Part shown: piece after piece, positions 51,031 to 62,237 of the stretch
How the letters are laid out: each line of letters begins with the position of its first letter
How positions within the stretch are numbered: the first letter of the stretch is position 1
DNA from: Thermoplasmata archaeon
Lineage (GTDB): Archaea > Thermoplasmatota > Thermoplasmata > Thermoplasmatales > Thermoplasmataceae
DNA: 64,000 bases
Assembly: GCA_021797355.1 (NCBI GenBank)
Contig: JAJZZX010000007.1
Coordinates: forward strand, 1 to 64,000
Direction: 5' to 3'
Program-made: the position numbers and the translations under genes
Notes under the pieces: generated by a model
Seen by the model: the letters and a program-made list of their open reading frames with translations, nothing else
Told to the model about the DNA's origin: nothing
The model's database searches: none

Positions 51031-51672
51031 TCATAATTCCTTTTCCTGCATGAAAATTCTCATTGCTTCCAGCACGTCTCTGGGTTCAAGTATGAAGGTG
51101 ATATCGTTGTGGAAAGATACGACCTGTATTATATTGATTCCATGATTGGACAGAAGCGATGACGAATACGCAACATAACCCTTCAGGTGCAGTATCTCAG
51201 GGGAGCTGATGATGATAAGTTCAGCTAGCCCCTGGGTAACCTCAATGATCTCCTTCTTGGGAATCATGCTGCTGATTCTCCTGAAAAGATCATCGCTGAT
51301 GACTAGGCCACAGCCCTGTGTAGCCTGTATAATCCTGTATTCAGTATAGCTCTCCGCAAGGTTCCTTGTAAGATTGATCAGCAGTCTTAGGTTTTCTGTA
51401 GCGGGCTTAAGAATGGCAACAGTAATGCTTGATCTTGTCTCAATGGTGGAATCCTTCAGAATCTTCCTGTATTTGCTGTTTGAAATGCCTGATCTTGGAA
51501 CACGCTTAAGAGCGGCTGCAATAGCATCAATATTGTCAATGCCCATATCGGCTGAAATTATTCTGGACAATGCAGAAAAATTTACAACTCCAATATCCAG
51601 GGATTTCCAGAGATCCGGGTTTAGGTCAAGGTACTTTCTTACCATCCCAGCTATTGTGTCTGAATTCTGCAT
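51031..51672 (-). CDS. ACT-domain protein with helical N-terminus, paralogue 1
   Basis: The 213-residue protein resembles those at 56946-57545 and 57557-58231. All have an N-terminal helical region (here VRKYLDLNPDLWKSLDIGVV followed by NFSALSRIISADMG) that could be a DNA-binding or dimerisation unit. A middle strand region (STIETRSSITVAIL) comes next, then a C-terminal ACT-like segment (IIISSPEILHLKGYVAYSSS, NHGINIIQVVSFHNDITFIL). ACT domains usually bind amino acids. It is divergent from an amino acid permease (51777) over 104 bases containing a dyad, so local control of that permease is the simplest idea. Molecular function is unproven. Confidence 0.65.
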   Translation of the reverse strand: MQNSDTIAGMVRKYLDLNPDLWKSLDIGVVNFSALSRIISADMGIDNIDAIAAALKRVPRSGISNSKYRKILKDSTIETRSSITVAILKPATENLRLLINLTRNLAESYTEYRIIQATQGCGLVISDDLFRRISSMIPKKEIIEVTQGLAELIIISSPEILHLKGYVAYSSSLLSNHGINIIQVVSFHNDITFILEPRDVLEAMRIFMQEKEL

Positions 51673-51723
51673 GAGAAATCTGAAATAGAATTATAATGTC
51701 CTATAATAAACTAATTAAAAACA

Positions 51724-51743
51724 TATGTCCAAAAAAGAACATA
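51724..51743. promoter_or_regulatory. Dyad between the ACT protein and the permease
   Basis: TATGTCC (51724-51730) and GAACATA (51737-51743) are inverted copies with one mismatch and an A6 spacer. The dyad directly precedes the AAAATTTAAACC TATA-like box (about 51744-51754) of the permease gene. It fits an operator for the divergent ACT protein; this is inference. Confidence 0.45.
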
Positions 51744-51776
51744 AAATTTAAACCTATCAGTTAATAAAACCGCTTT

Positions 51777-53354
51777 ATGGTACTAAAGAGAGAACTGGGC
51801 ATATTTCATCTTACGCTAGCATCTGTGACCGGAATGGTTGGATCAGGTTGGCTATTTGGAGAATTCTATGCCTCCTCAATTGCAGGGCCAGCATCAGTAT
51901 TGTCTTGGATTATTGGGTCCATGATGATCCTTGCCATTGCGCTCGTATATGCAGAGCTAGGCGGGAAAATTCCACTTGGTGGAGCAGCCGCAAGGTTCCC
52001 TGAGCTGACTCACGGGAAATCTGTATCGGCTATTAACGGCTGGGCTCTATTCCTTGGATACGTTTCAACCCCGCCCTTGGAAGCAGTTGCTTCGGTAACT
52101 TATCTTAACTTCATAACCGGAGGGCTGATCAACTCATCTGGGAATCTCACCTTAGCGGGGATAATACTGTCTTTTGCCATGCTGGTTGTGTTCTTCGCAA
52201 TCAACAGGTTTGGTGTCCGCGCCATATCCAACGCAAACAGTTACATAGCCATTGTTAAGATATTTATTCCTGTTATGACGGCAATTGTCCTTTTGCTGAC
52301 ATTCTTCTCCATAAGCAATTTTACTGCTGGCGGATTTTTTGCCGAAGGAACCGAGTCCATCTTCATAGCCATCCCAAATGCAGGTATAGTCTTCTCATTT
52401 CTGGGCTTCAGGCAGGCCATAGAACTATCTGGCGAGGCAAGAAACCCAGGCAGAACAGTTCCTGTGGCAATTATCCTGGGACTGGCCATCTCGGCTGCAA
52501 TATACATACTGGTTCAGTTCGCATTCATCGGATCACTGACATGGAAAGGAATCTCACTGGGAGACTGGACTGCCCTTTCTTCTTCCGGGTTTTCGTCTGG
52601 CCCTATGGTCGTCCTTGCAACTTCTCTTGGATTAGGATGGTTAGCTCTCATACTTCTTGGGGATGGAGTCATATCCCCAATGGGAACAGCCGCAATATAT
52701 GAGACAACAACGTCCAGGGTTGTTTACGCCCTCGGGGAGATGGGCTATTTTCCGCGCTTCCTTGCAAAACTCAATAAATATTCTGTCCCCTCAATTGCAC
52801 TGATATTTGATCTAATACTGATGGCAGTCTTTCTCATACCGGCACCATCATGGCAGAATCTTGTCTCACTCAACTCTGATCTCAGCATCATAGCTTATGC
52901 ATCAGGTCCTGTTGCGCTGATTGTATTGAGGAAACTTGGATCAGCATCACCTGCAGGGTATTTCAGGCTTCCTGCAGCATCTGTCATTGCACCCGTTGCC
53001 TATATTTCAGCTGTCCTGCTAATTTATTGGTCAGGTTATCCAACTACTTTATATATGTCTGCAGTAGCACTTGCCGGCCTGGCATTGTATGCATACATGG
53101 TCTGGAAAAAATCAGCCACGGTGGTGGACTTAAGGAATTCTCTCTGGTTTATCTTCACTCTCGCTTCAGTTCCGGTAATTTCATACCTGGGAAGCGAGAA
53201 TCTAAACGTCCTGAAATTTCCGCTGGACATAATTGTCATGGCTTTAATTTCCTTGTTGTTCTACGGCATTGGAATCAATACGCATGTGTCAAGGGAAGAA
53301 AGCCTAGGCATTGCTGGGCGAGCTTATGAGGCACACGGAGATGGGGAGATGTAA
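51777..53354 (+). CDS. APC-family amino acid permease
   Basis: The 525-residue protein has about 12 membrane helices with GMVGSGWLFGEFYASSIAGP and YAELGGKIPLGGAAARFPEL near the start, matching the APC motif. It is the same family and length class as the permease at 30014-31657 but clearly divergent. It imports an unknown amino acid. TATA at about 51744-51754 puts transcription start on or near the ATG, so the mRNA is likely leaderless. The dyad and divergent ACT-domain gene upstream suggest amino-acid-responsive control. Confidence 0.88.
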   Translation: MVLKRELGIFHLTLASVTGMVGSGWLFGEFYASSIAGPASVLSWIIGSMMILAIALVYAELGGKIPLGGAAARFPELTHGKSVSAINGWALFLGYVSTPPLEAVASVTYLNFITGGLINSSGNLTLAGIILSFAMLVVFFAINRFGVRAISNANSYIAIVKIFIPVMTAIVLLLTFFSISNFTAGGFFAEGTESIFIAIPNAGIVFSFLGFRQAIELSGEARNPGRTVPVAIILGLAISAAIYILVQFAFIGSLTWKGISLGDWTALSSSGFSSGPMVVLATSLGLGWLALILLGDGVISPMGTAAIYETTTSRVVYALGEMGYFPRFLAKLNKYSVPSIALIFDLILMAVFLIPAPSWQNLVSLNSDLSIIAYASGPVALIVLRKLGSASPAGYFRLPAASVIAPVAYISAVLLIYWSGYPTTLYMSAVALAGLALYAYMVWKKSATVVDLRNSLWFIFTLASVPVISYLGSENLNVLKFPLDIIVMALISLLFYGIGINTHVSREESLGIAGRAYEAHGDGEM

Positions 53355-53618
53355 TTCTCATAATCCAAGGAGGCAGCTTTAGACCTTGAACACGCCAACA
53401 CGAAGTTATCTACAAAGTTTGCGGATGGCGTGAGTCCCACCATCAAATTGCCTTCCAATCTCGCAGGGTATAAAAAAAGGACGAATGGCTCCCATGCCAG
53501 GAGTTCTCATACTTACATTTATTTCACTTTCAACATCAGTTCTTTGTTTTTTATTATGCAGTGTCGTTATCACGCTGCAAAAAAATATATATTTATGTCC
53601 GATGAAGGCTCGAAACCG

Positions 53619-53846
53619 ATGAAAACCTATCTGAAAGTTACGTTTTCCAGTGAGGGGGCTAAGCCCAGTGAGGTAATAAATAGGTTGAGGTCTCTTGGCT
53701 TTAAGCCAGTCATAGGCGAACAGGATATGATCTATGAATGGGGCGACAATGCCACTACAGAGGACTCAATATGGTTTGCCGACAAGATTCAGGCAACACT
53801 GGAAGGGTTCAAGGTTCTTTTTCAGATTGAAACACTGAATGATTGA
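53619..53846 (+). CDS. Small uncharacterised protein
   Basis: The 75-residue protein MKTYLKVTFSSEGAKPSEVI and on has alternating strand-helix-strand character (VTFSSEG, SEVINRLRSLGFKP, KIQATLEGFKVLFQIETL), like a small ferredoxin-like alpha/beta fold. Longer frames run upstream to 53430 and 53595, but a strong TATA tract (AAAATATATATTTA, about 53582-53594) ends about 25 bases before 53619. That makes this ATG the best start, with almost no leader. It converges with rnp4 (8-base gap). No function is recognised. Confidence 0.6.
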   Translation: MKTYLKVTFSSEGAKPSEVINRLRSLGFKPVIGEQDMIYEWGDNATTEDSIWFADKIQATLEGFKVLFQIETLND

Positions 53847-53854
53847 GCTTCAAT

Positions 53855-54193
53855 TTATCTGTGGTAGGGCAACCTTCGAATATCCCCACATTTTCCGCAG
53901 GTTATGATCGAAAGCCCATCTTTCAGTCGTATTCGGGTATCCGAAGAATAAGGGGTTTTGCATTTCTTGCAGTATGATCGCTTTATCTTGGGCGAGAGGG
54001 TGATGTCAAATCTCAGCGCCAGCCTTTCCATTATTATGATGCTGCTTTGAGACAGGCGCACGTCGGAAGATGCATTTCTAAGTGCCAGTCCATGCAGATA
54101 TTCGATCCTATCTTTTGCTATGGACTGAATATCCAGATTGGCGTTTGCACGCATCGACCTGTTTCTCCGCTGAACTCTCATTGCCATGATCAT
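53855..54193 (-). CDS. rnp4: RNase P protein subunit Rpp21 (Rnp4)
   Basis: The 112-residue protein has an N-terminal helical region (IAKDRIEYLHGLALRNAS) and a zinc ribbon YCKKCKTPY ... ITCGKCGDIRRLPYH with four cysteines, the Rpr2/Rpp21 pattern. It is one of the archaeal RNase P proteins that support 5' maturation of pre-tRNA. Start options include the Met at codon 4 (MRVQRRNRS). It is divergent from the phosphatase gene, with starts 48 bases apart. Confidence 0.9.
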   Translation of the reverse strand: MIMAMRVQRRNRSMRANANLDIQSIAKDRIEYLHGLALRNASSDVRLSQSSIIIMERLALRFDITLSPKIKRSYCKKCKTPYSSDTRIRLKDGLSIITCGKCGDIRRLPYHR

Positions 54194-54241
54194 GTTGCTC
54201 CACAGATTCGTTTTATATTGCTACAACTAATCCAGAATTCA

Positions 54242-54910
54242 ATGATAAAGCTTGTCCTGAGCGACGTTGACGGAACTCTGACAGACAATAGGAGAGTTTT
54301 CTCCACGCGGGCAGCTGAGGAGATACGCAAGATCCAGGCCCATGGCATAACTGTGAGCCTTGTAAGCGGAAACGTTATTCCTGTCATGTACTCACTCAGA
54401 ACTTATCTTGGGTTGTCTGCACCACTGTTTGCTGAAAATGGTGGCTCAATGATTGCAGATGACATAACTTCTTTCTTCTCAATGGAGAAACCAGCGCTAT
54501 TTTTCGATCACCTCCAGAACAAAGGGCTTGCCAGGGGGATTCTGACAAACCGCTGGAGATTATGTTCAATGGGGTATGATCCAACTCCCGGAAGGGAAAG
54601 AGAAATCCTAGCCTTGGCCGGTGAATTCCAGGTAGATATAACTAACAGCGGATTTTCGTGGCACATCCTGAACCAGGGGCAGAACAAGGGTTTCGCTCTC
54701 CTTCACCTAATAAAGATGTTCAAACTCAGGCCAGAAGAAGTCCTGGTGATAGGAGACAATCTGAATGATATGCCAATGTTTCAGGAGAGCGTCAAGAAAG
54801 CTGTACCGGCAAATGCAGAACCTGAACTAAAGGCAAAAGCGGACTACGTTTCGAAGCTCCCATACGGCGATGGGGCCAGTGAAATCCTGTCATCTCTCGA
54901 CAGTTTCTAG
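54242..54910 (+). CDS. Phosphoglycolate phosphatase (archaeal HAD type)
   Basis: The 222-residue HAD hydrolase has motif I KLVLSDVDGTLTDNRRV, motif II SLVSGN, motif III Lys in NKGFALLHLIKMF and motif IV VIGDNLNDMPMF. The Cof-type cap between motifs II and III and the size match the archaeal phosphoglycolate phosphatase group, of which a Thermoplasma acidophilum member is characterised. The frame extends to 54047 through the rnp4 region, but ATG 54242 begins right before motif I. The 3' end overlaps pyrC by 21 bases. Confidence 0.85.
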   Translation: MIKLVLSDVDGTLTDNRRVFSTRAAEEIRKIQAHGITVSLVSGNVIPVMYSLRTYLGLSAPLFAENGGSMIADDITSFFSMEKPALFFDHLQNKGLARGILTNRWRLCSMGYDPTPGREREILALAGEFQVDITNSGFSWHILNQGQNKGFALLHLIKMFKLRPEEVLVIGDNLNDMPMFQESVKKAVPANAEPELKAKADYVSKLPYGDGASEILSSLDSF

Positions 54911-56164
54911 GTCCCCGGTGAATATCCCCCGTCGGTCTTCAACGAGTTCATATTTGTCTATAACAGTTTCCCCCCTCATTATAACTGTGATAGGAAAAAC
55001 TGCATTGAAGCCGTGGAACGGGCTTATGGGAGACTTGGAATGTAGCCGGTCCTGGTTTATCCTCCGGATATCGCTGAATTTTACCGCAATGAAGTCAGCA
55101 AAGAAGCCGGGCTCTATCTTTCCCTTCCTTATCCCCATTATTGAGGCTGGATTCTCAGAAGCAGTCCTTATGAGTAGATCCAGGTCTATTATTTTAGCGG
55201 AAACAAGGTAAAGCATCAACGGAAGCCGGGTTTCAACACCGGGAATCCCAGATGATGCCTGATAGAATTCTTCCTTGTCATGCTCAGTATGCGGGGCATG
55301 ATCTGTGGAAAGCACATCAAATCTGCCCTCCCTGAACTGGCGCATCAACGCATCCTGGCTCTCGGGCTTTCTCAGGGGAGGATTCACTTTTCCCCAGCTG
55401 CCAAGATTCATGGCGTTGTTGAGAAGAAGGTGATGTGGCGTAACCTCCTTCTTCACATTCTCTGCAAGTGAAGCAACTGTTCCGGGGGAGCTAACGTGTG
55501 CCATTATTTTCCTATCAAGGGGAAGGTTGCTGATAACCTTTGCAGATTCAAGCTCGCATTCCTCAGGCCTGGCCAGATCATGTTCCTTCAGGTCATGCTC
55601 CTCCTGAATGAAGTGTCTAGAGAGGCACGCAGAATCTTCCCCATGAAAGACAACAGGTACCTGAAGTGCATTTATCTTTTCAAGATCAGCATGAGGAATA
55701 TCACCTACGGGAATTGCGTTTGTGCTTCCTCCAAGGAATATTTTTATACCGCTGCTTTTCCGTGAAATCACATCAGCATTCCGGCCGTCGTAAAGGGAAT
55801 AAAGGCCAAAGTCACAGAATGACTTCGACTTCACAATGGATAGCTTATCATCAAACACGGAATAGTTATTTACCGGTATTCTGTTGTTAGGCATGTCGTA
55901 TACTGTGGTGGTTCCACCAAATAGGGCTGATGTGCTGCCGGTGATGAAGTCTTCCTTGTCTGTCTCCCCGGGGTCCCTAAAATGAACATGTATGTCAGTT
56001 CCTGCTGGCAATATTGCACCCTCTAGAGTCTTTCTGGGCCCTCCGGTCATCGCTTTGCCAATTCCGCGAATAACGCCATCCTTAACCCCTACTTCAAGGT
56101 CCCTGTAGGAACCCCTGAAATAGAACCTTCCGGAATATATGATGTCATATTCCATATCAGACAC
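54890..56164 (-). CDS. pyrC: Dihydroorotase
   Basis: The 424-residue amidohydrolase has the metal motif GTDIHVHFRDPGETDKEDF, a KIFLGGST region with the bridging-site lysine position, PVVFHGED, IMAHVSSPGT and catalytic Asp in LSTDHAPHTEHDKEEF. This is the class I dihydroorotase of pyrimidine synthesis, closing carbamoyl-aspartate to dihydroorotate. Its start overlaps the queE end by 8 bases, so the two are translated together even though the pathways differ. Its end overlaps the phosphatase gene by 21 bases. Confidence 0.93.
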   Translation of the reverse strand: MSDMEYDIIYSGRFYFRGSYRDLEVGVKDGVIRGIGKAMTGGPRKTLEGAILPAGTDIHVHFRDPGETDKEDFITGSTSALFGGTTTVYDMPNNRIPVNNYSVFDDKLSIVKSKSFCDFGLYSLYDGRNADVISRKSSGIKIFLGGSTNAIPVGDIPHADLEKINALQVPVVFHGEDSACLSRHFIQEEHDLKEHDLARPEECELESAKVISNLPLDRKIMAHVSSPGTVASLAENVKKEVTPHHLLLNNAMNLGSWGKVNPPLRKPESQDALMRQFREGRFDVLSTDHAPHTEHDKEEFYQASSGIPGVETRLPLMLYLVSAKIIDLDLLIRTASENPASIMGIRKGKIEPGFFADFIAVKFSDIRRINQDRLHSKSPISPFHGFNAVFPITVIMRGETVIDKYELVEDRRGIFTGDLETVER

Positions 56165-56786
56165 CCCTTATTTCTCCCCAGATGAGCTTGTGCAGCTGTG
56201 GAAGTATACGGACATCTAGCCTGTCATTCAAGACTGAATCAGCGATCCAGCGCATTTCTGTTCCCCAAGCTGGCTGGAACACAACTTCGCAGCTAAATTC
56301 ATTCTCGGAAATAAATCTCCTGGCATATTCATAATCAATCATATCAGCTATGACAAACTTGAGATAATCATTTTTCCTCAGTAGCTTGAGATTTTGCCGA
56401 TGCAGGTTTTTCTCTTCTCCGGAAGAAGGAGTCTTTACGTCCATATCTATCGTGATGGACTTGCTGTGGACATAGGGGTCAATTGGCAAAGAGCCGCTTG
56501 TCTCCAGAAGCACCGACCTTCCAGATCCAGTTATCCTATTGACAAGCTCTGGAGACTCACGCTGCAGCAAAGGCTCTCCTCCGGTCAGGCAGATCCATTT
56601 CTCAGATGAAGCCTCCACTGTTCTCATCAGTTCGTCTATGGTAATGTCAGTGCCTCCAGAAAAAGTGTAGGTTGAATCACACCATTTGCATCTGAGGTTG
56701 CATCTGTTTGTTCTAATGAATAGCATGGGAAGACCCATAAGTGTGCCTTCTCCCTGTATGCTGTGAAATATTTCCGTGATTAGCAA
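56157..56786 (-). CDS. queE: 7-carboxy-7-deazaguanine synthase (QueE), radical SAM
   Basis: The 209-residue protein opens LITEIFHSIQGEGTLMG and has the iron-sulfur motif RCNLRCKWCDSTYTF (CX3CX2C), then WICLTGGEPLLQ, the typical QueE order. It turns 6-carboxytetrahydropterin into CDG, the preQ0 precursor used for archaeosine in tRNA. The start is TTG at 56786. On the minus strand a TATA-like AATATTTATC (about 56809-56818) places transcription start close to it, so it is probably leaderless. It is co-transcribed with pyrC (8-base overlap). The upstream region holds the dyad shared with lysW. Confidence 0.93.
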   Translation of the reverse strand: MLITEIFHSIQGEGTLMGLPMLFIRTNRCNLRCKWCDSTYTFSGGTDITIDELMRTVEASSEKWICLTGGEPLLQRESPELVNRITGSGRSVLLETSGSLPIDPYVHSKSITIDMDVKTPSSGEEKNLHRQNLKLLRKNDYLKFVIADMIDYEYARRFISENEFSCEVVFQPAWGTEMRWIADSVLNDRLDVRILPQLHKLIWGEIRGV

Positions 56787-56811
56787 CCGGTGTACATTGC
56801 ATTGAGAGATA

Positions 56812-56839
56812 AATATTCATCCACTTGCCTGGATGCAAT
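56812..56839. promoter_or_regulatory. TATA-linked dyad, copy A (queE / ACT-protein intergenic)
   Basis: AATATT (56812-56817), ATCCA (56819-56823) and TGGATGCAAT (56830-56839) recur in the same order before lysW (58260-58289). ATCCA and TGGAT form a 5+5 dyad with a 6-base spacer. It lies between divergent queE and the ACT-domain gene at 56946. The word identity over 21 positions is seen directly; a regulatory role is inferred. Confidence 0.5.
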
Positions 56840-56945
56840 AAGGTTAAACTTCATTATTTGTTAAAATGAGTATTTACCTGTTAATCAATTATCAATCTTA
56901 ATAGCATTAAGGCAAAAATAATAAGGATTAAAGAAATACCGTGCA

Positions 56946-57545
56946 ATGGCTCAGCAGAGGAAAGGCCGTGGATCAGTGGAAACGGCCGTTAGGCAATACC
57001 TTAAACTGAGGCCAGAGACCTATTCTTTCCTCAAGGACAAGATTATCAACATCAGCAGACTTGCCGAGGAGATAAAGGAAAAATACCCCGATCTCAGCCT
57101 GGCCAGCATAAGATATTCACTTAACAAGATAATGGAGGAGAGCAGCAAAAGAAAGGCTGACTTTTCTTACGTTGAAGAACTTCTTATGCAAAGCAAGGTA
57201 TCTCTGCAGGACAAGATAACAGTTCTGACTTCTCCGAAGACCCTCAATGTCGGCTATATATCAGCAACTTATCTTACAGACTCTGTGGTTTACATCGTGG
57301 ACGAACTCAGAAACGGCAAGCTACCCATTGGATCCAACGTAACAATAGAGAGGGATGTCAGTGCCATTCACATACTATCACCAAAGGAAATTGAGCATGT
57401 TCCAGGATTTGTTATGAGGATAACTGAAAGGCTCTATTCTGTTGGGGTTAATATTCTGCAGCTTATTTCCTGCTCAAACGAAACGATTATCGTTGTAAAG
57501 AAATCTGACGGGGTAAAGGCATATGAAACCCTGGTAATATCGTGA
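56946..57545 (+). CDS. ACT-domain protein with helical N-terminus, paralogue 2
   Basis: The 199-residue protein has a basic N-terminal helical part (VETAVRQYLKLRPETYSFLK, then NISRLAEEIKEKYPDLSLAS) that looks like a helix-turn-helix. It is followed by a middle beta region and a C-terminal ACT-like domain (AIHILSPKEIEHVPGFVMRI, GVNILQLISCSNETIIVV). It is similar in layout and motifs (IHILxP, GINIxQ) to 51031-51672 and 57557-58231. It is divergent from queE-pyrC with a 159-base gap and convergent with paralogue 3 (11-base gap). An amino-acid-responsive regulator is my best inference; no experimental function is known to me. Confidence 0.65.
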   Translation: MAQQRKGRGSVETAVRQYLKLRPETYSFLKDKIINISRLAEEIKEKYPDLSLASIRYSLNKIMEESSKRKADFSYVEELLMQSKVSLQDKITVLTSPKTLNVGYISATYLTDSVVYIVDELRNGKLPIGSNVTIERDVSAIHILSPKEIEHVPGFVMRITERLYSVGVNILQLISCSNETIIVVKKSDGVKAYETLVIS

Positions 57546-57556
57546 TCAGAGTAATG

Positions 57557-58231
57557 CTACCTCGATATTCTGGCGAATCTGATCATATCTGTGACTATGT
57601 TGAAGGCATCACCAGCCTGACCGTCATCAACAATTATCATCAAGTCTGAAAATGAAGTGGCAGTGCCGGCAACGTTTATCCCGTTCATGGAGAGTTTTTC
57701 AAATACTGTGGTTAGAAATCCCCTTGTGTCCAGGGAGGATCGGGGGACCAGTATATGAATGGCAGAAAGTCCACCCCTCGAACTTGTGATATGGGACTTG
57801 GAAATTCTCCAAAGTTCTCCGAATGTCTTGGAATCCATGAGCAGAGTGCTATCCTGTATTCCTACTGACAGAAAAATTGAACCCTCAGATAGAGGTACCT
57901 TGATCTCGTCCATTATCCTGGCGATGTATAGGTTTGGAATCACGGCTTCTGTCATTCCAGTAGTCATTTTAATGGAAGATGACGCCAGGGCAGAATTTAT
58001 TGGAAACTCAGCGTTCGTTGTTTGATCTCTGCTGCGTTTTATTGCCGACATTATTGCCTCGCGTGTTGGCAACACTCCCAGCCTTGTTTCCACCATGGGG
58101 GCTATGAACCTAGCTATGCCACTCAAGTTTGCGTATCCATTTCGCAATGAAATGTTGAGGAACAGATCCTTCTCCATTATTTCACGTACAACCCTGTTAA
58201 CGCTTACGGTTCCCCCATTCGTTTTGGGCAT
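57557..58231 (-). CDS. ACT-domain protein with helical N-terminus, paralogue 3
   Basis: The 224-residue protein repeats the architecture: an N-terminal helical region (VNRVVREIMEKDLFLNISLR, NLSGIARFIAPMVETRLG), a middle part (SIKMTTGMTEAVIPNLYIA) and a C-terminal ACT-like domain (AIHILVPRSSLDTRGFLTTV, NGINVAGTATSFSDLMIIVD). It is divergent from lysW with only 56 bases between starts. That gap holds a perfect 7+7 palindrome right at the lysW start. A role as sensor and repressor of LysW-dependent synthesis is the natural hypothesis. It shares little identity with the other two except in the ACT region. Confidence 0.65.
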   Translation of the reverse strand: MPKTNGGTVSVNRVVREIMEKDLFLNISLRNGYANLSGIARFIAPMVETRLGVLPTREAIMSAIKRSRDQTTNAEFPINSALASSSIKMTTGMTEAVIPNLYIARIMDEIKVPLSEGSIFLSVGIQDSTLLMDSKTFGELWRISKSHITSSRGGLSAIHILVPRSSLDTRGFLTTVFEKLSMNGINVAGTATSFSDLMIIVDDGQAGDAFNIVTDMIRFARISR

Positions 58232-58259
58232 TTATGAACCATATAGGTCATAAGTAATT

Positions 58260-58289
58260 AATATTTATCCAGCGATAGCTGGATGCAAT
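58260..58289 (+). promoter_or_regulatory. TATA-linked palindrome, copy B (lysW promoter)
   Basis: AATATT (58260-58265) is followed by the perfect inverted repeat ATCCAGC-GATA-GCTGGAT (58267-58284) and GCAAT, running into the lysW ATG at 58288. If AATATT is the TATA core, transcription starts at or next to the ATG and the palindrome fills the gap between. It shares 21 ordered positions with copy A at 56812-56839. It could be an operator or an mRNA hairpin. Confidence 0.6.
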
Positions 58290-58476
58290 GATGAATACAC
58301 AGATGCAGCAGGAATGTGAAACATGCGGCGGCACGATCCCGATCCCACAAGATGTGGTTATTGGGGAGATCCTCAAATGCCCGGACTGCGGACTTGAATA
58401 TGAGGTCAAGGAGATCAACGGCGGAATTTGCAATCTGGAACAAGCTGAGAATGTAAAGGAAGACTGGGGAGAATAA
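58288..58476 (+). CDS. lysW: Amino-group carrier protein LysW
   Basis: The 62-residue acidic protein has the zinc motif CETCGGTIPIP ... CPDCGLEYEV (two CxxC pairs) and the LysW C-terminal signature EDWGE. The terminal glutamate receives the substrate amino group: alpha-aminoadipate for lysine or glutamate for arginine in archaea. Substrate ornithine/lysine synthesis proceeds while attached. It is followed by the ATP-grasp ligase gene after 107 bases. A Met pair at the start leaves codon 1 or 2 as the initiator. Confidence 0.95.
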   Translation: MMNTQMQQECETCGGTIPIPQDVVIGEILKCPDCGLEYEVKEINGGICNLEQAENVKEDWGE

Positions 58477-58583: not shown

Positions 58584-59444
58584 TTGGGCATGACAAACAT
58601 AACACTTTTATTTGACATAATGCGCTGGGAAGAGAAACAGCTTCTTCTAAAAGCAAGAGAGAAAGGTGTCGGCATGAATTCTGTGGACATAAGGAAGATG
58701 ACCCCTGTCCTTGGGGAATCTCCAGTTCCAGGCATAGGAGATATATGCCTGCAGCGCGGTGTTAGTTTTTACAGAGGGCTCTTTTCTACTGCATATCTGG
58801 AATACTCGGGGCATATGGTGATCAATACCTTCAGGTCACTCGATCTTACTGGCAACAAGCTTTTGACATCCCTGGAACTATGGAAGAACGGCATACCCAC
58901 TCCACGAACCGGTTCTGCCTTTGACCTTGAGTCAGGACTGAAACTGTTCACTGAAAAGTTTAGCGGAACTGCTGTGATAAAGCCGATAACTGGAAGCTGG
59001 GGCCGGATGATTGCCCTTCTCAAAGACCGGCAGGCGGCAGAGGCAGTTATAAATGAGAGATCTCTAATGCATCCGATCCAGTCAGTGATATATATGCAGG
59101 AATTCGTTGAGAAGCCGGAAAGAGACATACGAATAATTGTGGCAGGAGAAAGAATGGTGGCTGGAATGTACAGGTACCAGGTTGGTGATGAATGGAGGAC
59201 GAATGCAGCCATAGGAGGAAGGGTAGAACCTTTGCCTCATGATCCTGAGATAGAGGAACTAGCGATAAGAGCCACAAAATTTCTGGACCCTGGAATATAC
59301 GGAGTAGACATTATGGAGTCTGCATCAGGAAGCCTTGTACATGAGATAAACGGAACCATGGAGTTCAAAGGCGTGACGTCTGCTTCCGGAGTTGATGTTG
59401 CTGGAGAGATAATTGATTTTCTAGTATCAGAGGCAAGAAGATAA
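58584..59444 (+). CDS. LysW ligase of the ATP-grasp RimK family (ArgX or LysX)
   Basis: The 286-residue ATP-grasp protein has FSGTAVIKPITGSWGRMIAL (ATP grip), MQEFVEKPERDIRIIVAGERM, WRTNAAIGGRVEPLP and the metal/substrate loop VHEINGTMEFKG. It ligates the amino group of glutamate (ArgX) or alpha-aminoadipate (LysX) to the C-terminal glutamate of LysW. Nearby argH and argG favour the arginine route. Some archaeal enzymes accept both substrates, so the choice is not settled. The other LysW-pathway genes (kinase, reductase, aminotransferase, hydrolase) are not in this window. Confidence 0.85.
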   Translation: MGMTNITLLFDIMRWEEKQLLLKAREKGVGMNSVDIRKMTPVLGESPVPGIGDICLQRGVSFYRGLFSTAYLEYSGHMVINTFRSLDLTGNKLLTSLELWKNGIPTPRTGSAFDLESGLKLFTEKFSGTAVIKPITGSWGRMIALLKDRQAAEAVINERSLMHPIQSVIYMQEFVEKPERDIRIIVAGERMVAGMYRYQVGDEWRTNAAIGGRVEPLPHDPEIEELAIRATKFLDPGIYGVDIMESASGSLVHEINGTMEFKGVTSASGVDVAGEIIDFLVSEARR

Positions 59445-59480: not shown

Positions 59481-60815
59481 TCATGATGTTGCTGAAGCAA
59501 TTTGCTTCATTGCAGATACAAGATCACTTATCAGGCCTTCTCTGCGCTCCTGCGCTGACCTGATGCCTTCATCCAGTTTATCCAGATCCTTTACAGCAAC
59601 GCTGCGTATCTCAACAGGATCAATTTCCACCAGCTTCTCCTGTTTCCGAATTTTTCTTCCTACTTCTAAATAAGCATCCTTCCAGGCCAGTCCATTCCTG
59701 AAGCTGACGAAGGAATTTGCTGTCGCGTATGAACTATTATCAATCGCTGAAGAGGAACTTTCCGGATTGAACCGTATTCCCTGAAAAAGCTCAACCATCC
59801 TTGCGAGAATCTCCTCTAAGAGGAGAGCAGAATTAACGGCGAGCAACTTGGAGATCTGGAAATCCCTATGATAACCTGAGCTCTTGTTAAGCAGTATGCC
59901 CAAGGTGGACTGCAGCTCCCCGAAATGCAATGCGGCATATCCCTGCACCATCTCAAGAAAGTCTGGATTTTTCTTGTTTGGCATAAGCGAACTTCCAGTG
60001 GTGAAGCCGTCCGGAAGAGTAAATAATGGCAGATCATCGCCCGAGAACATGATGAGGTCCTGGGAAACTCTGGAAAGTGTTGCCATGATTTCTGCGCCAG
60101 CCATTAGAAATTCAGCCTCATCCATTCCCCTCCTTGAAGCCAGGAACATTGGATTCAGCCTGGGATGTTCAAAGCCAAGATAGGATGCAACCTTATTGAA
60201 GTCAATATCAGTCAGCTGCCCGAATCCGGAGCCATAGCCGAACGGAAGTATTTTCATGCGGGAAGCTCTTTCCACAAGATCCCGTGCGAGGTACTCAAAC
60301 TGTGCAGCCATGAAGTCAAAGTAAGTTACGGCAGAGATTGCCATGGCCTGCCGGTAGTGCGTGTATCCAGGCATTATCCCGGAAATCGAATCGCGTTTCA
60401 TGACAATCGTCCTTGCAAGGCTGGAGCACAGCCTAGCCATCTGAAGCAAGTGGTCATTTAGGAACAGGAAAATATCAGTATGGCTCTGTTCGTTTCTGGA
60501 AAGGAATATCCTTAGATTCTTCCCTGCTTCTCCAGCATCCTTAAGCACAAATTCCTCAACATTTCCGTGGACATCCTCCAGGTCTGGCTGAAGCTTTACG
60601 GGGTTTTCAAGCAATTTGATAAGAGACGCAGCTATTCCCGAACTCTCTTTAGGTGAAATGAGGCCCCTTCCATGAATTTCCCTGTGGTAGGCCATGAGGA
60701 CCAGAACCTCATATCTTTCCAGGTACTCATCAATTCTGATGTCATCATCGACCATCAGCCTGTTTAGGCGGGACGATGATTCTCCGGAAGCTCCTCCCTG
60801 CCATATCTTTGGCAT
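59481..60815 (-). CDS. argH: Argininosuccinate lyase
   Basis: The 444-residue fumarase/aspartase-superfamily enzyme has DVHGNVEEFV, RNEQSHTDIFLFL, the proton-abstracting region PGYTHYRQAMAISA and the signature TGSSLMPNKKNPD. It splits argininosuccinate into arginine and fumarate. It is 4 bases after the argG stop, in one operon, and converges with the LysW ligase gene (36-base gap). Confidence 0.95.
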   Translation of the reverse strand: MPKIWQGGASGESSSRLNRLMVDDDIRIDEYLERYEVLVLMAYHREIHGRGLISPKESSGIAASLIKLLENPVKLQPDLEDVHGNVEEFVLKDAGEAGKNLRIFLSRNEQSHTDIFLFLNDHLLQMARLCSSLARTIVMKRDSISGIMPGYTHYRQAMAISAVTYFDFMAAQFEYLARDLVERASRMKILPFGYGSGFGQLTDIDFNKVASYLGFEHPRLNPMFLASRRGMDEAEFLMAGAEIMATLSRVSQDLIMFSGDDLPLFTLPDGFTTGSSLMPNKKNPDFLEMVQGYAALHFGELQSTLGILLNKSSGYHRDFQISKLLAVNSALLLEEILARMVELFQGIRFNPESSSSAIDNSSYATANSFVSFRNGLAWKDAYLEVGRKIRKQEKLVEIDPVEIRSVAVKDLDKLDEGIRSAQERREGLISDLVSAMKQIASATS

Positions 60816-60819
60816 GGCA

Positions 60820-62037
60820 TCACAGAGTGCTTATCAGCCCTGCAGCTGACTTCTTCCTTGTCCTGCTGGTATTGACTGTCTGCATTCCGTATATCTCCAC
60901 AAATCCCTTTGCATACGATTGGTTGAAGGTATCCATCTTTCCATAGGTGGATTTCTCATAATTATAGAGGGAATTGCTGCTCTCCATCCCCATGACTGTC
61001 AGGTTTCCCCCTTTCAGGCGCAGGAATACCTTGCCAGAGACAAATGAGTTCACGCTTTTCTCAAATGCGTTTATGTGTTCCATTAATGGATCATACCAGA
61101 GGCCGTTATATGTCATGTCTGACCATTTCGTGTCCAATATGTTCTTCATGGACACCTCCTCCTTGCTCAGTGTCATCCTTTCCAGGGATTTGTGTGCAGT
61201 AAGTATTGTCATCGCGGCAGGGCATTCGTAGAATTCCCTGCTCTTTATTCCCGTAACCCGGTCCTCAAGATGATCTATTGCTCCGTATCCTGCCTCCCCG
61301 GCTATTTTGTTGAGAAGCATAACAATCTTTTCCAAAGACATTTGCTTTCCATTTATCTCCCTTGGCAAGCCACCCAGAAACGTTATTTCAAGGTCAACAG
61401 CATCACTGCCTGTTTTTCCTGGCGGAGTTATCCATGAATATGCGTCTTCAGGAATTGGTTTCCTGGGATCTTCAAGATCCGAACCCTCAACTGAGCGTCC
61501 CCAGAGATTTTCATCTGTGGAGTATTTTCCTCCGAGTTTTACCGGAATACCGTTCGCGTGTGCGTATTCCATTTCATCGTCCCTGTTGAGACCCCAATCC
61601 CTGACCGGCGCTATAACATCAATGCCATCCTTGAGCGCCTTGATTGAAACCTCGAACCTGACCTGATCGTTTCCCTTGCCTGTGCATCCATGGACCACGA
61701 GATCGCAGTCGAACTGCTCAGCGGCATTGACCGCCTCAAGAGACATCAGAGGACGGGCTATGCTTGTTGAAAGAGGATAAACACCATCGTAGAGGCCATC
61801 TGCAAGTATGTCCTTCGCAATGTACCCGTTGGAAAATTCCTGTTTTACGTTCTTGGTGATGACATCGGCGGCACCAAGCTTCCATGCTTTATCCGCAATG
61901 GCAGCCAGATCGTTCTCTTCCTGGCCGATGTCGAGGGTGAGTGTTACAACATCTATTCCAAGCTTTTCCTGAAGCATTTTCAATATGACAGAGGTATCCA
62001 GTCCTCCAGAATAGAGGAGAAGGCCACGTTTTACCAT
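60820..62037 (-). CDS. argG: Argininosuccinate synthase
   Basis: The 405-residue protein has the PP-loop LLLYSGGLDTSVILKML, VVHGCTGKGNDQVRFEV, APVRDWGLNRDDEMEYA and KYSTDENLWGRSVEGSDLED, all ArgG hallmarks. It joins citrulline and aspartate using ATP. It is the first gene of argG-argH. On the minus strand, TATA-like GATATATTATA (about 62057-62067) puts transcription start near the ATG, so the message has almost no leader. A palindrome lies just upstream at 62081-62096. Confidence 0.96.
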   Translation of the reverse strand: MVKRGLLLYSGGLDTSVILKMLQEKLGIDVVTLTLDIGQEENDLAAIADKAWKLGAADVITKNVKQEFSNGYIAKDILADGLYDGVYPLSTSIARPLMSLEAVNAAEQFDCDLVVHGCTGKGNDQVRFEVSIKALKDGIDVIAPVRDWGLNRDDEMEYAHANGIPVKLGGKYSTDENLWGRSVEGSDLEDPRKPIPEDAYSWITPPGKTGSDAVDLEITFLGGLPREINGKQMSLEKIVMLLNKIAGEAGYGAIDHLEDRVTGIKSREFYECPAAMTILTAHKSLERMTLSKEEVSMKNILDTKWSDMTYNGLWYDPLMEHINAFEKSVNSFVSGKVFLRLKGGNLTVMGMESSNSLYNYEKSTYGKMDTFNQSYAKGFVEIYGMQTVNTSRTRKKSAAGLISTL

Positions 62038-62080
62038 AACGGGGTATTTTCATTATAATATATCAAGATTTTTAAAATTA

Positions 62081-62096
62081 TTAACAAAATTGTTAA
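62081..62096. promoter_or_regulatory. Palindrome TTAACAA-AA-TTGTTAA upstream of argG
   Basis: A perfect 7+7 inverted repeat with a 2-base spacer lies about 14 bases upstream of the argG TATA box. Position and symmetry fit an operator for an arginine-pathway regulator. AT-rich sequence raises the chance of coincidence. Confidence 0.4.
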
Positions 62097-62237
62097 GTTT
62101 CTCGCAATAACGTTAGTTATACTCTAATTTTTTAGCATATATCTTAAAAAATGCGGCATCAAATCCATGCCTAGCGTCCCGATGGCAAAAGAGTTGGGAA
62201 AGCATTTATCCTCTGGATTGATTGTAGTTCGGTAGGC

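Follow-up and report, generated by a model that had tools for sequence, protein, structure and literature searches.

Within the 64,000-nucleotide stretch of a Thermoplasmata archaeon contig that we analyzed (the window), three small proteins are encoded at the coordinates and on the strands given by an earlier sequence-only reading: P1 (213 residues; 51031–51672, minus strand), P2 (199 residues; 56946–57545, plus strand) and P3 (224 residues; 57557–58231, minus strand). Also as that reading described, each is divergent from a metabolic gene. P1 faces an amino acid permease of the APC type (51777–53354, plus strand); P2 faces queE (56157–56786, minus strand), with pyrC (dihydroorotase; 54890–56164, minus strand) downstream of it; and P3 faces lysW1 (58291–58476, plus strand), which encodes a 61-residue amino-group carrier protein that scores above the cut-off of NF041070. 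Beyond lysW1 lie lysX1, encoding a LysX/RimK-type ligase (58590–59444, plus strand), argH (59481–60815, minus strand) and argG (60820–62037, minus strand).

The three proteins score together in one profile. They have in common an N-terminal motif, VNxSxLAR...AIxxALKR, and, at the C-terminus, an ACT domain (ACT_7). They are paralogues, with a low pairwise identity to P1 (17–25% in an alignment of P1–P3 and two further copies from the same genome). Those two copies, which make the family larger than had been noted, lie at G000:C4:407151 and G000:C7:78932, where they face a second lysW operon and an EamA-type transporter, respectively. A profile built from all five copies placed every one of them far above noise in the source genome and found members in 27 of the 41 genomes searched, the source included. 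A tree of 61 members contains an argG clade (with P2), a LysW clade (with P3 and the C4 copy), a clade of P1 and other permease-linked copies, and a clade of the C7 copy. Members of this last clade elsewhere (L080–L093) often adjoin a TauE/SafE-like transporter (named by eye), which suggests a different ligand. In a scan of a genome collection the P2 clade fell in the Thermoplasmatales, including Ferroplasma acidarmanus Fer1, Acidiplasma aeolicum and Thermogymnomonas acidicola. A homologue with 28% identity to P2 was also seen outside the phylum, in a Micrarchaeota bin (L173, 1388–2002).

Judged by profile scores, the nearest named family is DUF7523 (PF24367), whose function is unassigned. The window proteins themselves fall under its gathering cut-off of 27 bits (P1 24.1, P3 23.3, P2 no score), whereas relatives near arg genes lie above it, and the P1-clade member of genome G009 scores 38.5. 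Pfam ACT_7 is matched by all three proteins, in P1 and P3 at scores under the curated cut-off; among 26 diverse members at E ≤ 0.01, 19 match ACT_7 and 11 match DUF7523. The A5 profile and DUF7523 recover the same loci in G057, G067, G045, G049, G060, G221, G227 and G245, consistent with a single gene family. A search of the open-access literature found nothing on DUF7523 or this family, and the statement that no member has been characterized holds to that extent.

AlphaFold2 models of P2 and P3 (mean pLDDT 85) comprise four to five N-terminal helices followed by a module of two ACT domains. All 50 PDB matches listed by Foldseek for each protein are aspartokinases or their regulatory subunits, with TM scores of up to 0.70 by target length, and the family sequence profile reaches the PDB aspartokinase 3l76 at an E value of 9e-10. 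The predicted fold and the sequence match therefore agree with each other, and with the earlier assignment of an ACT fold, in identifying the modeled C-terminus of P2 and P3 as an aspartokinase-type tandem ACT module. Aspartokinases use this module to sense lysine and threonine; unlike them, the present family has no kinase domain and carries the helical domain in its place. A winged helix, which the sequence-only reading had proposed to look for at the N-terminus, is absent from both models, and we reject it. A profile of the N-terminal domain gave no significant match to a known DNA-binding domain in PDB or Pfam; hits to HTH_12 and Fur in other searches were weak. In its helix pattern and its VNxSxLAR...AIxxALKR motif the domain resembles a helix-turn-helix, which would be compatible with DNA binding.

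The region between P3 and lysW1 contains a candidate operator, TATGAACCATATAGGTCATA (58233–58252; consensus TATGACC-N6-GGTCATA), that runs from one base upstream of the P3 start codon to 4–5 bp before the probable lysW TATA element. That element, ATTAATATTT (58257–58266), is near-palindromic, conserved together with the operator, and probably common to lysW and P3. Promoter and positional assignments, here and for P1, were read from the sequence rather than from mapped transcripts. In an exhaustive search of nine regulator–lysW intergenic regions, several of them from close relatives and two delimited around a site that had been spotted by eye beforehand, TGACC-N6-GGTCA ranked first of 5120 palindromic combinations of half-site and spacer, with 6 mismatches in total over the 9 loci, as against 19–23 for the best pattern in shuffled sets. 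A 39-bp block containing the site is identical in three genomes, while its flanks differ. Two divergent regulator–lysW pairs that had played no part in defining the motif, found in order-wide lists (G160 and G200), both carry TATGACC-N6-GGTCATA with 0 mismatches and in the same place, before a TATA-like ATTAATA; since the spacer is the same in both and the surrounding region similar, the two may be worth hardly more than a single independent confirmation.

The sequence-only reading had pointed instead to inverted repeats in each intergenic region. Such repeats are indeed present, but repeats of 6–7 bp are common in DNA this rich in AT and are therefore uninformative. The dyads it singled out, CATCCA/TGGATG (56818–56835) and ATCCAGC/GCTGGAT (58267–58284), are not conserved in congeners and look like chance occurrences; the conserved element is a different one, at 58233–58252.

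The LysW clade adjoins lysW in several genera, and the divergent P3–lysW pair is among those conserved elsewhere. Many lysW-bearing genomes have no adjacent regulator, as in the g10 Ferroplasma group. For P3, lysine rather than arginine is indicated by genome G003, where its orthologue lies with lysW and lysX beside homocitrate synthase. The second lysW operon of the source genome (G000:C4:402151-407051; L041) has the order lysW-lysY-lysZ-lysJ-lysX-lysK (lysX tested, the other names assigned by eye), so that the genome holds two LysW and two LysX genes, and each of the two lysW genes has an ACT regulator of its own opposite it. Taken together, the conserved pairing and the operator strongly support a regulatory link between P3 and lysW. 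The site is not unique in the genome. A perfect TATGACC-N6-GGTCATA occurs at G000:C4:244147-244166 (locus L097, 4001–4020), flanked by a ribonucleotide-reductase-like gene and by an ftcD-like operon with a threonine-dehydratase-like gene after it, and this copy may be either an extra member of the regulon or a chance match. Another copy, in G008, is not next to a lysW gene. A genome-wide scan that allowed 2 mismatches was too unspecific to define a regulon.

We propose, with a probability of about 0.75, that P1, P2 and P3 are one-component transcriptional regulators of amino acid metabolism, in which DNA is bound by the helical N-terminus and an amino acid is sensed by the tandem ACT module. 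This reading is built on the observed homology, the predicted fold, the recurrent gene pairing and the conserved operator of P3 and the C4 copy; from these we infer DNA binding, the ligands (arginine and lysine), autoregulation and the sign of control. The helical, HTH-like domain would bind beside the TATA/BRE of the target promoter, and binding of an amino acid by the ACT module would change its DNA binding. P3 would control lysW-lysX, and the C4 paralogue would control the second lysW operon through a site of the same kind. With its site at its own start codon, P3 probably also controls itself: a protein sitting there would lie over the likely start of P3 transcription and reach the lysW BRE, making autorepression likely. 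At lysW itself, occlusion (repression) and activation from a BRE-adjacent site in the manner of the Sulfolobus regulator LysM are both possible, with end-product repression appearing somewhat likelier.

The same domain architecture could also describe free-standing allosteric subunits: an amino acid would be sensed by the ACT module, while the partner of the helical domain would be an enzyme or transporter (LysX, ArgG or the permease) instead of DNA. The kinship of the module to that of an allosteric enzyme subunit and the N-terminus's lack of a significant match to any known DNA-binding family are what one would expect of such proteins. This explanation nevertheless accounts poorly for the variety of the family's partners, enzymes and transporters alike, and for a recurrent divergent orientation that is typical of regulators, and it leaves unexplained a dyad conserved across genera between regulator and target, beside a TATA element. 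We therefore regard it as unlikely.

Less probable still is that the operator is bound by some other regulator, for instance one of the Lrp type, and that position is all that connects the ACT proteins with it. In Sulfolobus solfataricus the Lrp-family protein LysM controls the LysW pathway operon (lysWXJK) in response to lysine from a site beside the BRE/TATA, and archaeal activator sites sit just upstream of the BRE (PMC2995911), so that a precedent for such a binder exists. Against it, each lysW-side site that we read has an ACT protein as its divergent gene and lies at or near the start of that gene, and P3 and the C4 copy, which share the site, belong to one clade. LysM itself differs in kind, combining an Lrp HTH with a RAM domain; no Lrp model in Pfam or NCBIfam matched P1–P3, and the models of P2 and P3 are wingless.

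Regulation by P1–P3 themselves thus being preferred, the question of targets can be taken for P2 and P1 in turn. The proposal that each copy controls its neighbor fits P3 and lysW best; for P2, the probable regulon is argG-argH. P2 orthologues diverge from argG at 26 of the 33 species-level loci; in Ferroplasma acidarmanus Fer1 (L149), a cultured relative, P2 likewise faces argG. In this genus and one other lineage (L144), argH-argG is convergent with P2 and about 3 kb downstream of it, and in this genus queE-pyrC fills the divergent slot. Control of queE-pyrC through the shared region (56787–56945) is thus suggested by an arrangement limited to the window and its genus, and it is very improbable, since the usual divergent partner outside the genus is argG-argH and since the P2–queE region of the source genome fails to align with that of G003, where P2 is 89% identical.

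The association with argG extends to the family as a whole, to which the following counts refer, rather than to P2 orthologues specifically. In a sample of 145 genomes drawn across the phylum, a family member is present in 42 of 42 genomes with argG versus 11 of 103 without (Fisher p 1e-26, a value that, because the sampled genomes are related, is not one of independent trials). The family gene lies within 500 bp of argG in 16 of those 42 genomes and within 7 kb in 32; fifteen of the 16 close genes, in 9 genera, are divergent from it. Counted per genus, 21 of 26 have a family gene within 7 kb of argG. In some classes the family gene comes after argD (named by eye). P2 would accordingly be expected to act on the region upstream of argG (62038–62237), which holds TTAACAA-AA-TTGTTAA at 62081–62096. 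A palindrome search of P2–argG regions established no operator statistically. Its best pattern, AATAT-N8-ATATT, did better than shuffled sequences (23 versus 29–33) but occurs at inconsistent positions, and we set it aside as AT-rich noise. A 26-bp imperfect palindrome, ATTTTTTAGCATATATCTTAAAAAAT (62127–62152), also lies between argG and the next gene, and is apparently not conserved in congeners.

P1 would control the permease from which it diverges. This pair is kept across the genus and also in G009, and like the P3–lysW pair it bears out the expectation that the divergent placement recurs in related genomes, which for P2 and queE holds within this genus alone. Upstream of the permease TATA is a direct repeat of ATGTCC (51697–51730), a candidate P1 site whose TGTCC copies (51697–51701 and 51726–51730) are 29 bp apart from start to start; the spacing is exactly kept in five congeneric genomes, with 0–1 mismatch (one genome with a mismatch). 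The half-site resembles the TGACC of the P3 operator, and a palindromic search of the P1 region found no dyad better than shuffles. Conservation of the gene pair and of the repeat supports a regulatory link between P1 and the permease.

Ligand-dependent repression by a divergent, autoregulated protein has a precedent in TrpY of Methanothermobacter thermautotrophicus, which responds to an amino acid, is divergent from its target, binds boxes in the overlapping promoters and represses itself (PMC6737238). The regulatory logic is similar and the TrpY family (NF053754) has an ACT-like C-terminal segment, but P1–P3 belong to a different family: against a cut-off of 180 bits P1 scores 17.1 and P2 and P3 are not listed, and hhalign joins only 32–48 ACT columns, at probabilities of 25% and 14%, with the N-termini unaligned. 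The source genome has separate TrpY-family proteins, one of which passes NF053754 at 180.8 bits.

To our knowledge, little is known of how amino acid synthesis is controlled in archaea, and here one uncharacterized family tracks argG without exception in the phylum sample and lies beside arginine and lysine genes. We consider it reasonably probable that DUF7523-type proteins form an archaeal class of regulators of arginine and LysW-dependent lysine biosynthesis, combining the aspartokinase module with a new, wingless DNA-binding domain, and that duplication has given copies that recognize related half-sites (TGACC, TGTCC), each next to the target it controls. If so, the feedback-sensing module of an enzyme has been reused as a transcriptional switch. 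With a defined candidate operator, direct tests of the regulator, its ligand and the sign of control become possible, and DUF7523 would thereby gain a function.

As a further observation on the assembly, contig C11 (L176) repeats a diverged copy of the C7 block near 209 kb (L175), beside a TrpY-family gene, as if the contig of a related strain had been mixed in.
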